A stretch of 35,400 nucleotides of DNA from Eubacteriaceae bacterium (GTDB lineage: Bacteria; Bacillota; Clostridia; Eubacteriales; Garciellaceae), in the NCBI GenBank assembly GCA_012838085.1, contig DUPX01000089.1, positions 1-35,400 of the forward strand, written 5' to 3'. The notes beneath the pieces were generated by a model. It saw only the letters and a program-made list of their open reading frames with translations, was not told where the DNA came from and searched no databases. This document shows, piece after piece, positions 15,039 to 32,715 of the stretch (its first letter is position 1; each line of letters starts with the position of its first letter). The translations under genes were made by a program, and so were the position numbers.

Positions 15039-15974
15039 CTATTCCCACTCTATCGTTGCCGGTGGCTTGCTTGTTATATCGTAGACTACTCGGTTTACTT
15101 CCGGTATTTTATCTGTAATTCTAGTGGATATTTTCTCTAATATCTCTAGAGGGATTTTTGCCCATTCTCCTGTCATTCCATCTATGGAGTTCACTGCCCT
15201 TAAGGCTATAGTATGACAATATGTTCTCTGCCCATCTATCACTCCCACTGATTGAATATTGGGAAGAACTGCAAAATATTGCCAAATATTTAGACCTGCA
15301 TTTTTTATTTCTTCTCTAAATATATAATCTGCTTCCCTTAATATCTCTAGTTTTTCTTTTGTAATCTCTCCTAGACATCTTACTGCTAGTCCTGGTCCCG
15401 GAAATGGTTGTCTTTCAACTATCTCTGGGGATATTCCTAATAATCTTCCTACTTCCCTTACTTCTTCTTTATATAGGGTTTTTAAAGGCTCTATCAGTTC
15501 AAAGTTTACATCCTCTGGAAGGCCCCCTACATTGTGATGGGATTTTACTGCCACCTTCCCCTTGGTACCGGATTCTATGATATCTGATTTTATAGTCCCT
15601 TGAACTAGATAGTCTATATCCTTTAATTTGCTCTGTTCTTCTTCAAAGACCCTTATAAATTCTTCCCCAATTATTTTTCTCTTTTTCTCTGGGTCAATTA
15701 TTCCTTTAAGCTTATCTAAAAATCTTTCCCGGGCATCTACTGTTATTAAATTCATTTGGAAGTGGTCTTTAAATTCCCTTTCCACTTCTTCCCTTTCGCC
15801 TTTCCGTAAAAGTCCATGGTCTACAAATACACAGGTGAGTTTTTCCCCAATTGCTCTATGGACTAGCACTGCAGCTACTGATGAATCTACTCCCCCTGAT
15901 AGGGCACATAGGACCTTTTTATTTCCTATTTGTTTTCTTATATTTTTTATTTCTTCTTCTAGAAATTTTTTCAC
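15039..15974 (-). CDS. guaA: GMP synthase, ATP-pyrophosphatase and dimerisation domains only (no GATase domain)
   Basis: [96 protein letters not shown] start behind AGGAAGTG. Confidence 0.93.
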
Positions 15975-27934: not shown

Positions 27935-29860
27935 GTGATATTATCATGTAAAAATATAAGTAAGTCCTTTGGTATTAACACCATATTGGCGGATGTTAGT
28001 TTTCATATAAGTTACGGTCAAAGGGTGGCCCTGGTGGGTAGAAATGGTACAGGAAAGTCCACCTTATTTAAGATAATTGCTGGAGAAATTTCAAAGGATA
28101 GTGGAAATATTATTACTCCTAAGAATACTACAATAGGATATCTCTCCCAGAAGCTAGACCTTAATGAAGAAAATAGCCTTTGGGTAGAAATGGTTAATAT
28201 CTTTAATGAACTTATTGAACTGGAACAGCAGATTCGATTCTTAGAAAAGGAGATAAGTAAAAAAAGTAATAGTCAAGACTTGCCCCTACTTATGGAAGAG
28301 TATGGCCACCTCCAAGAAAAATTTGAAGAATTAAATGGATATAGCTATCCCAGTCAAATTCGTGGGGTGTTGACTGGATTAGGTTTTAGTGAAGCTGACT
28401 ATAGTAAATCTATAGCTAACTTTAGTGGTGGTCAAAAAACCCGTATTGCTTTGGCAAAACTTCTTTTAATACAACCCCAGATCTTATTATTAGATGAACC
28501 TACAAACTTTTTAGATTTAGATGGAACAGAGTGGTTGGAAACATATTTATCCAGTTATCCCCATACACTTTTTATTATTTCCCATGATCGCTATTTTTTA
28601 GATGCCCTAGTGGACCAGGTATTGGAATTGGAAAATCATAAAATAACTATTTACCAAGGGAATTATTCCCAATATGTGAGATATAAGAAGGAAGACCAAA
28701 AGATAGCCTTCCACCAATATAGAGAACAGCAAAAGGAAATAAAAAGGCAGGAGGAAATTATTGCCAAATATCGTTCTTTTAATCGGGAAAAGAGCATAAA
28801 AAAGGCGGAGAGTAGACAAAAGGCCTTAGATAAGATTGTGTTATTAGAAAGACCGGAACAACAAAAAAATCTCAATCTATCCATCCAACCTGAGATAAAT
28901 AGCGGACGAGATGTGTTAAAGGTGGAAGATTTATCTAAGTCCTTTGGAGACCATGAGATCTTTAATAATATTAGCTTTCAGATCTATAAGGGAGAACATA
29001 TAGGAATTATTGGCCCTAACGGGGTGGGAAAATCCACACTATTCAATATTATATTAAATAGATTGTCCTCAGATTCTGGTAATGTCACCATAGGCAGAAA
29101 TGTATATCCTGCATATTTTGACCAATTGCAGGCCTTATTAGATAGTGACAACACAATATTAGAGGAGCTTTGGAAAGAAAAGCCTTCTGCCACAGAAACA
29201 GAAATTCGCAATCTTCTAGGTGCCTTTTTATTCTCTGGAGATGATGTCTATAAGGAAATTTCCACCCTATCAGGAGGAGAACGTAGTAGGGTATCCTTGG
29301 CTAAACTGATGCTCTCTAAAGCAAATCTTCTTCTAATGGATGAGCCTACCAATCATCTAGATATAGATACAAAGGAAGTGCTAGAAGATGCCCTGATACA
29401 ATATAAGGGTACCCTTCTAGTCATATCCCATGATAGATACTTTTTAAATAAGGTGGTCCATAAAATCTTTAAGATGAATAGAAAAGGTATGGAGGTATTC
29501 TTAGGTAATTATGATTATTATCTTGAAAAAAAGAAACAGGAACAACTATTAAGAGAAGGGCAACAAATAGCACCTATTATTAATAAAACCCAACTTAAAC
29601 AGGAAAGAAGAAAAGAAAGGGAATATCGTCAGGCCTTTAAAAATCAACAGCAAAGAATTGTATCCCTAGAACATAAAATAGAGGAATTAGAAAAGAAAAT
29701 TTATAAACTGGAACATATAATGTGTCAACCTAATTTTTATGATGATGGGGATAGGGTCCAGGATATTACCAAAGATTATAATAATAGTAAGGAAGAACTA
29801 AAAGAAACAATGTTGTTATGGGAAGAAAATATGATCTTATTAGAGGAAATGGGGGATTAA
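27935..29860 (+). CDS. ABC-F family ATP-binding cassette protein
   Basis: Two ABC domains (GRNGTGKSTLFKII / GPNGVGKSTLFNII), FSGGQKTRIALAKLLL, LSGGERSRVSLAKLML, inter-domain linker; no TM segments; GTG start behind GGAGG. Confidence 0.95.
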   Translation: MILSCKNISKSFGINTILADVSFHISYGQRVALVGRNGTGKSTLFKIIAGEISKDSGNIITPKNTTIGYLSQKLDLNEENSLWVEMVNIFNELIELEQQIRFLEKEISKKSNSQDLPLLMEEYGHLQEKFEELNGYSYPSQIRGVLTGLGFSEADYSKSIANFSGGQKTRIALAKLLLIQPQILLLDEPTNFLDLDGTEWLETYLSSYPHTLFIISHDRYFLDALVDQVLELENHKITIYQGNYSQYVRYKKEDQKIAFHQYREQQKEIKRQEEIIAKYRSFNREKSIKKAESRQKALDKIVLLERPEQQKNLNLSIQPEINSGRDVLKVEDLSKSFGDHEIFNNISFQIYKGEHIGIIGPNGVGKSTLFNIILNRLSSDSGNVTIGRNVYPAYFDQLQALLDSDNTILEELWKEKPSATETEIRNLLGAFLFSGDDVYKEISTLSGGERSRVSLAKLMLSKANLLLMDEPTNHLDIDTKEVLEDALIQYKGTLLVISHDRYFLNKVVHKIFKMNRKGMEVFLGNYDYYLEKKKQEQLLREGQQIAPIINKTQLKQERRKEREYRQAFKNQQQRIVSLEHKIEELEKKIYKLEHIMCQPNFYDDGDRVQDITKDYNNSKEELKETMLLWEENMILLEEMGD

Positions 29861-30964: not shown

Positions 30965-30980
30965 TATGGAGGTTCTAATT

Positions 30981-31526
30981 ATGAATATAAAAAAGGTTGT
31001 ATTAGTAGGAATGTTTTCTGGACTATTAGCTATAATATCTCCTCTGCAAATCATTCTTCCCTTTTCCCCTGTCCCTATTACATTACAGGTAGTGGGCATG
31101 GTTTTATCCGGAAGTATCTTAGGAAGCAAGCTAGGTTTTTTATCAGTACTAATATATACAATATTAGGTTTAGTAGGTCTTCCTATTTTCGCTGGTTTTA
31201 AAAGTGGTGTACCTACATTAATAGGTCCTACCGGGGGTTATATAATAGGTTTTATTGTTGCAGCATATATAATTGGCAAATTAATAGAAATAAAGGATGA
31301 GCCTGGGCTGGCTTATATGCTATTTGCCAATATTATCGGTTTAATAATTCTCTATACCATCGGCACCCTCCAATTATCCTTTGTTTATACCCATTCTATT
31401 CCAAAAGCTATAGTTGCCGGTGTTCTACCTTATATAATTCCTGATTTAATAAAGATATTTTTTAGTTCCATTCTTGTAATACAGGTGCGAAAAATCCTTA
31501 TTAAGTCTAATTATATAATCTTATAA
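30981..31526 (+). CDS. bioY: Biotin transporter BioY
   Basis: LQIILPFSPVPITLQVVGMVLSGSILGSKLGFLSVLIYTILGLVGLPIFAGFKSGVPTLIGPTGGYIIGFI; start moved to 30981 behind GGAGG. Confidence 0.95.
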   Translation: MNIKKVVLVGMFSGLLAIISPLQIILPFSPVPITLQVVGMVLSGSILGSKLGFLSVLIYTILGLVGLPIFAGFKSGVPTLIGPTGGYIIGFIVAAYIIGKLIEIKDEPGLAYMLFANIIGLIILYTIGTLQLSFVYTHSIPKAIVAGVLPYIIPDLIKIFFSSILVIQVRKILIKSNYIIL

Positions 31527-31534
31527 ATGGGAGG

Positions 31535-31638
31535 TTCTCCACAACCTGTCCACAATATCCACATGGTTATCCACATGGGTAAATCTTGTAAATCTGATAT
31601 TCTATTTATTTTATTTTAGTTTTTCCACATTATCAACA
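31535..31638 (+). repeat. Cluster of six DnaA-box-like 9-mers
   Basis: TTCTCCACA 31535, CTGTCCACA 31546, ATATCCACA 31555, TTATCCACA 31567 (exact), TTTTCCACA 31621, TTATCAACA 31630; all same orientation. Confidence 0.6.
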
Positions 31639-31647
31639 TTTACATAA

Positions 31648-32715
31648 TTATGATAGTGGTAAACTAGGGTAGGCATTAAGATCTAGATCAGAGATATTAC
31701 CCTTTAAATATTGATAATAGCCGGCAGCACCTATCATGGCAGCATTATCGGTACACAATATAATAGATGGATAACCTAGGTGAATATTCTCCTTTCTAGC
31801 TAACTTCCCTATTTCTTCACGAAGGGCAGTATTTGCAGCCACTCCCCCTGCCAAGTAAATAGAATTGGATTTCTTTTCTATAGCTGCCTTTATGGTTTTA
31901 TTGGCAAGAACCTCCACTACAGCCTGCTGGAAACTGGCCGCCACATCCTCTACTATAATTTCTTCCCCCCTCATTTTACAGCTATTCAAATAATTTAATA
32001 CTGAGGACTTTAAACCACTAAAACTAAAGTCGAAGCTATCCTCTTCTAGATAAGCCCTAGGAAAATCTATGGCATATTTATTTCCTTCCTTGGCCTTTTT
32101 ATCTATTAGGGGTCCACCTGGATATCCTAATTTTAGAGCCCGAGCAATCTTATCAAAGGCCTCCCCAGCTGCATCATCCCTAGTCCTACCTAAAACTTGG
32201 TATTCTCCATAATCCACTACATAAATTAAATGGCTATGGCCCCCTGAAGCAACTAAAGATACAAAGGGTGGTTCCAATTCCCTATACTCTATATAATTAG
32301 CCGATATATGCCCATCTATATGATGAACTCCGATTAGAGGAATATTCAAACCAAAGGCAAGGGCTTTCCCAGTGGAAAGGCCTACTAATAAAGCCCCTAC
32401 TAATCCAGGACCATAGGTAACAGCAATGCCATCTAATTCTTTAAGGGAAATGCCTGATTGCTCTATAGCTTCATCAATAATATAGGGTATCTTTACTAAG
32501 TGATTGCGAGATGCTACCTCTGGCACCACCCCACCAAAGACCCTATGAATATCTATTTGGGAATATATCTTATTGGATAGTACCTCCCGTCCATTTTTTA
32601 CTATGGCAATAGAGGTTTCATCACAGGAGGTCTCAATGGCCAATAAAATTATATCCTTATTCTTCTCTATATTTTTATTCATTCTTTCCTTTAATTTCTT
32701 TATTGAATAGTTCAT
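31648..32715 (-). CDS. tsaD: tRNA N6-adenosine threonylcarbamoyltransferase TsaD
   Basis: [64 protein letters not shown]. Confidence 0.97.

Follow-up and report, generated by a model that had tools for sequence, protein, structure and literature searches.

Gene Neighborhood and DnaA-Box Array

The window analyzed in this study is a stretch of 35,400 nucleotides from the genome of a Eubacteriaceae bacterium. The gene order in the window was tsaE-tsaB-rimI-X-tsaD, a DnaA-box array, bioY, a D-2-hydroxyacid dehydrogenase gene, an ABC-F ATPase gene, rex and, further on, groES-groEL, the last pair being identified from ORF translations. tsaD was formerly named gcp. The ABC-F gene was ydiF-like and lay 1.7 kb beyond the array, separated from it by bioY and the dehydrogenase gene; we infer that it is orthologous to Bacillus subtilis ydiF. 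The array filled the 121-bp gap between the convergent genes bioY and tsaD and started 9 bp from the tsaD stop codon. The features are listed in Table 1. Elsewhere in the window, at 15039–15974, a GMP synthase-like ORF of 311 aa apparently contained the ATP-pyrophosphatase part alone.

Table 1. Positions in the window of the DnaA boxes and of the genes around them.
Feature	Position	Strand	Description
ABC-F ATPase gene, likely ydiF counterpart	27935–29860	+	ABC-F families; tblastn matches to ydiF-like genes adjoining the arrays of relatives
bioY	30966–31526	+	PF02632, 4.7e-42; convergent neighbor, varies among relatives
DnaA box F	31535–31543	+	TTCTCCACA, 1 mismatch
DnaA box E	31546–31554	+	CTGTCCACA, 2 mismatches; step to D 9 bp
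DnaA box D	31555–31563	+	ATATCCACA, 1 mismatch; step to C 12 bp
DnaA box C	31567–31575	+	TTATCCACA, exact; conserved more than any other box
AT-rich spacer, 45 bp	31576–31620		length conserved, sequence not conserved
DnaA box B	31621–31629	+	TTTTCCACA, 1 mismatch
DnaA box A	31630–31638	+	TTATCAACA, 1 mismatch; abuts B (step 9 bp)
tsaD (= gcp)	31648–32715	−	TIGR03723, 432 bits; syntenically linked to the array

The original prediction placed six DnaA-box-like sequences of one orientation, one of them exact, between convergent bioY and tsaD, and this was borne out. All six 9-mers were found at the predicted positions and on the predicted strand, spanning 31535–31638 (104 bp). The boxes are lettered A to F in the direction of tsaD; all were in the TTATCCACA sense, with steps from A to F of 9, 54, 12, 9, and 11 bp. 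One box was exact, four had one mismatch, and one had two.

The density of the boxes was compared with that of Markov-simulated windows. Within 105 bp of one strand, the 400 simulated windows contained no more than five boxes with 2 or fewer mismatches (reached three times) and never six. The next densest same-strand cluster in the window had three such boxes per 105 bp. The plain motif TTWTNCACA occurred 7 times in the window against 3.7 expected, which was not significantly high. It is the clustering, rather than the number of boxes, that exceeds chance. The C-D-E triple (31549–31575) had no second match in the 1.70-Mb genome of this organism, even when 3 mismatches were allowed. Two other clusters were seen in the same genome, whose cluster counts rest on exact-box positions and individual stretches: one of six DnaA boxes, at C41:2126–2285, downstream of a V-type ATPase subunit D-like gene, and one of five, at C24:10242–10408, overlapping a YedE-like/TusA-like gene pair.

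Conservation of the Array Downstream of tsaD

The 3′ flanks of tsaD from 93 clostridial and 40 bacillar genomes (133 in total) were scanned for the layout A-B-(41–54)-C-12-D-9-E, and an array was called at a score of at least 20. The array was present, in one orientation to tsaD, in 37 of the 93 clostridial and 16 of the 40 bacillar flanks; the flanks came mostly from the better-scoring TsaD matches, and these fractions are therefore biased. The same scan gave no array on the opposite strand and none in ten shuffled sets (0.0 per set). In the next 800 bp, it gave 0 of 90 in Clostridia and 1 of 38 in Bacilli. Since over half of the sampled flanks in both classes had no array, the array is dispensable in many lineages.

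An unbiased scan was carried out with the bare triple TGTGGATAANNNTGTGGANNNTGTGGA, allowing at most one mismatch, in 388 genomes of the class, taken to be Clostridia from the nearest named loci. It returned 127 matches in 110 of the 388 genomes, which as relatives are not independent of one another, and the reversed-pattern control returned 0. Among the 79 matched genomes with a listed place of tsaD, 53 had the match 76–564 bp downstream of tsaD, in every case (53/53) on the tsaD strand. Named genomes were scanned independently, which yielded 80 loci. Twenty-two of them, including loci of Alkaliphilus, Geosporobacter, and Caloramator, were in the same orientation as tsaD and less than 500 bp downstream of it; the remaining loci were near dnaA/recF, at a mycobacterial site, upstream of mraZ, or elsewhere.

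The array was then compared in two relatives of the same family. In G002, the order tsaD-array-bioY-dehydrogenase was kept, with six boxes at steps of 9, 55, 12, 9, and 11 bp. In G001, the array was kept at steps of 9, 54, 12, 9, and 11 bp, and bioY was absent there. The boxes of both relatives were 81% identical to those of the window (44 of 54 positions in each). Outside the boxes, identity to G001 was 15 of 50 positions, about the chance level, and the spacer was 36% identical to that of G002. Selection acts on the boxes and not on the DNA between them. In two Alkaliphilus loci (L105 and L128), the order tsaD-array-bioY-ydiF was kept. The boxes would have been expected to vanish from relatives with bioY-tsaD synteny if the prediction were wrong; they persisted in G002, where all six remained, and in both Alkaliphilus loci. 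The gene after the array was bioY, ydiF, the dehydrogenase gene, or another gene, in either orientation. Because this gene changes across relatives, the array travels with tsaD and not with its neighbor.

No description of the conservation of a tsaD-linked array was found in the literature searched, which did not include Okumura 2012; earlier notice within Bacillus is possible.

Spacing and Helical Phasing of the Boxes

The shared spacing was A-9-B-(42–44 or 51–55)-C-12-D-9-E, and the two B-to-C classes held in most relatives. The position of box E was kept across Clostridia and Bacilli. Distances between same-orientation boxes in the 133 flanks peaked at 9, 12, 21, 31–33, 42–44, 51–56, 63–65, 73–74, and 85–87 bp. 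Nearly empty troughs were found at 13–19, 25–30, 35–39, 45–50, 57–61, and 66–71 bp, with a background of 0.57 per bp. Apart from the 9- and 12-bp steps, the peak distances were near multiples of 10.5 bp, which places the boxes on the same face of the helix. About one helical turn separated the two common spacer lengths.

The boxes had a high information content, whereas that of the spacer was near zero; the spacer had almost no informative columns and no conserved motif of a bending-protein site or unwinding element. Clostridia and Bacilli have the spacing, the orientation, and the gene address in common although the sequence separating the boxes has diverged to about chance, indicating that the geometry itself is selected.

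Chromosome Position

In 14 of the 15 complete genomes scored at 20 or above, tsaD and the array lay away from dnaA by 13–41% of the replichore; the genome studied here is a draft of 131 contigs. The exception was G043, whose array-bearing tsaD was near the terminus, at 96% of the replichore. tsaD was almost always co-directional with the replication fork.

Comparison with Known DnaA-Box Clusters

The B. subtilis gcp-ydiF cluster is reportedly one of the oriC-proximal DnaA-box clusters (Okumura 2012, Smith & Grossman 2015). In B. subtilis, genome-wide in vitro binding put the region downstream of both gcp and ydiF among the strongest outside oriC for DnaA (PMC4447404). The gcp-ydiF region has 10 boxes and an apparent Kd of 0.15 μM for ATP-DnaA versus 0.33 for ADP-DnaA, and 16-fold more of its DNA was recovered with ATP-DnaA than with ADP-DnaA at 55 nM (PMC4447404). 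Deletion of six clusters outside oriC led to early initiation in B. subtilis (PMC5295017, PMC13220808).

The array of the window resembles the gcp-ydiF cluster in being an intergenic DnaA-box cluster downstream of tsaD (gcp), and the tsaEB-rimI-tsaD/ydiF-rex-groESL neighborhood is retained in the window. It is a cluster of TTATCCACA-like boxes between tsaD and ydiF, apart from dnaA-dnaN, with an architecture shared by Bacilli: the same steps and orientation were found in 16 of 40 Bacilli at a score of at least 20, and in Neobacillus terrae ydiF was the gene next to the array. The window differs from B. subtilis in having bioY and the dehydrogenase gene between the array and ydiF, and in having six recognized boxes where B. 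subtilis has ten. The homology to the B. subtilis cluster is drawn from the gene address and from the arrays of other Bacilli, in which the boxes were compared one by one.

In the incC module of B. subtilis oriC, a distal box is helically phased over three turns and used 44 bp from box 6 (PMC6669920). The layout of the array is similar: incC also combines paired boxes (box 6/7) with a helically phased distal box some 44 bp away, and it has an orientation constraint (PMC6669920). In contrast to incC, the array of the window has a larger number of boxes, set in a fixed 9/12/9/11 series, lies away from dnaA/dnaN, and has no obvious DnaA-trio or unwinding site.

The datA, DARS1, and DARS2 sites of Escherichia coli are likewise DnaA-box clusters outside oriC that act on DnaA availability, but the array of the window is in another gene context and no IHF or Fis partner is known for it. 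The suggestion that the array is a titration or regulatory cluster like those described elsewhere was supported for the B. subtilis clusters, where the gcp-ydiF position matched, while the likeness to datA was unsupported in detail.

Proposed Function of the Array

The array is best explained as a predicted DnaA-binding array of same-face, same-orientation boxes, a positional homologue of the gcp-ydiF cluster that was inherited with tsaD across Bacillota and would sequester ATP-DnaA (probability about 0.7). It is probably an ancient Bacillota element that brakes replication through DnaA. This explanation starts from the observed boxes, which are fixed in spacing and phasing, conserved in their orientation and in their linkage to tsaD, and under selection. 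By analogy with B. subtilis, DnaA binding, a preference for ATP-DnaA, and an effect on initiation timing would be expected in this organism, and sequestration and looping may occur.

In the proposed mechanism, DnaA monomers would bind at boxes A-B and C-D-E-F. Almost every distance between boxes is near a whole number of helical turns, so neighboring DnaA molecules would sit on the same side and be able to cooperate, and could build a cooperative complex that prefers ATP-DnaA. A loop across the spacer of about 4–5 turns is possible. The complex would keep DnaA from oriC. If the array is copied fairly soon after initiation, the sink would double early in the cycle and may help prevent premature re-initiation.

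Titration alone does not account for the strictly kept spacing and orientation. Simple titration would not call for so strict a geometry, and a trap or a nucleotide switch is therefore conceivable. It can be suggested, tentatively and with more doubt than confidence, that the tsaD-linked array is an ancestral element of fixed geometry common to Clostridia and Bacilli, that its helical phasing makes it a functional device, either a trap that takes up ATP-DnaA cooperatively or a nucleotide switch, and that it would be the Bacillota counterpart of datA/DARS instead of a loose titration pile. No equivalent of datA/DARS is said to exist in B. subtilis, and the limitation of DnaA outside oriC is largely unexplored in Bacillota other than B. 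subtilis. The array offers a precise, mutable target for probing the control of initiation.

Alternative Explanations

An active nucleotide-switch site, with datA-like hydrolysis or DARS-like reactivation, would have an architecture that places DnaA protomers to stimulate ATP hydrolysis or ADP release, not merely to store DnaA. Spacing, phasing, and orientation stricter than passive titration requires would suit such a site, as would the discrimination between ATP- and ADP-DnaA by the B. subtilis gcp-ydiF region (PMC4447404). However, B. subtilis reportedly lacks datA, DARS1, DARS2, and IHF (PMC13220808), and the spacer lacks any conserved motif for a bending protein. Such a switch site is unlikely.

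A local role in transcription is somewhat less probable still. DnaA bound between the two 3′ ends could act as a roadblock or terminator, or could regulate bioY, tsaD, or their neighbors. The array fills a convergent gap in which no intrinsic terminator was found for bioY or tsaD, and such a role would fit this arrangement. Promoter-like matches were little above shuffles (5 versus 2.6 ± 1.8), and no Rfam match to a structured RNA was found up to an E value of 0.1. Against this role, the array sits 3′ of tsaD and not at the promoter of tsaD or bioY, and it stays although the identity and orientation of the next gene vary: by a rough ORF-based call, the next gene was convergent versus co-directional in 26 versus 11 Clostridia and in 4 versus 12 Bacilli.

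The genome has its own dnaA-dnaN-recF-gyrBA locus on another contig (C2), where the dnaA-dnaN gap contains boxes, and the DnaA encoded there has the C-terminal domain typical of the protein (PF08299, 111.8 bits). The array is thus not the canonical oriC, which agrees with the original prediction; it is not beside dnaA/dnaN, and no DnaA-trio run adjoining the boxes was obvious by eye. A copy of oriC was also considered and found no support in the dnaA regions of 20 relatives or in the own oriC of this genome. The full layout was absent from the oriC regions of these 20 relatives, where the best score was 22 versus up to 35 at tsaD. A secondary or relic origin would be consistent with a DnaA-box array that has an AT-rich spacer and a phased distal-box layout resembling incC, but the normal dnaA-dnaN oriC, the unconserved spacer sequence, the lack of an obvious trio run by eye, and the low scores at the oriC regions of relatives make it very improbable.

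Chance, or a leading-strand composition bias of TGTGGA words by which the fork-directed tsaD would bias box orientation, can practically be dismissed, being refuted at the sequence level by the simulation and by the shuffle, opposite-strand, and reversed-pattern controls, none of which gave the array, and being at odds with the fixed spacings and with conserved boxes set in DNA whose identity is close to chance.

Other Recurrent Box Clusters

Several clusters away from tsaD were noted in the scans. A near-identical DnaA-box cluster was found in 13 mycobacterial genomes (L112, L116, L133, L140, L141, L145, L147, L154, L159, L166, L167, L177, and L180), with an opposite-strand TTATCCACA 59–70 bp before TGTGGATAAACCTGTGGAAACTGTGGATAG and with glpQ-like and sodA-like genes nearby in several genomes. 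It is possibly a conserved DnaA site.

A second recurrent triple, starting TGGGGATAA, was present in several clostridial families (G005:C6, G122:C2, G336:C218, G231:C110, G300:C35, G269:C110, G211:C26, G354:C37, G070:C82, and G146:C32) and is perhaps another conserved DnaA cluster.

Triples just upstream of an mraZ-like gene in two Patescibacteria contigs and one Elusimicrobia contig (L126, L136, and L176) may be MraZ-type repeats instead of DnaA boxes. Triples were also found at about the same place within mutL-like reading frames of Oscillospiraceae and Enterococcus contigs (L148 and L165).
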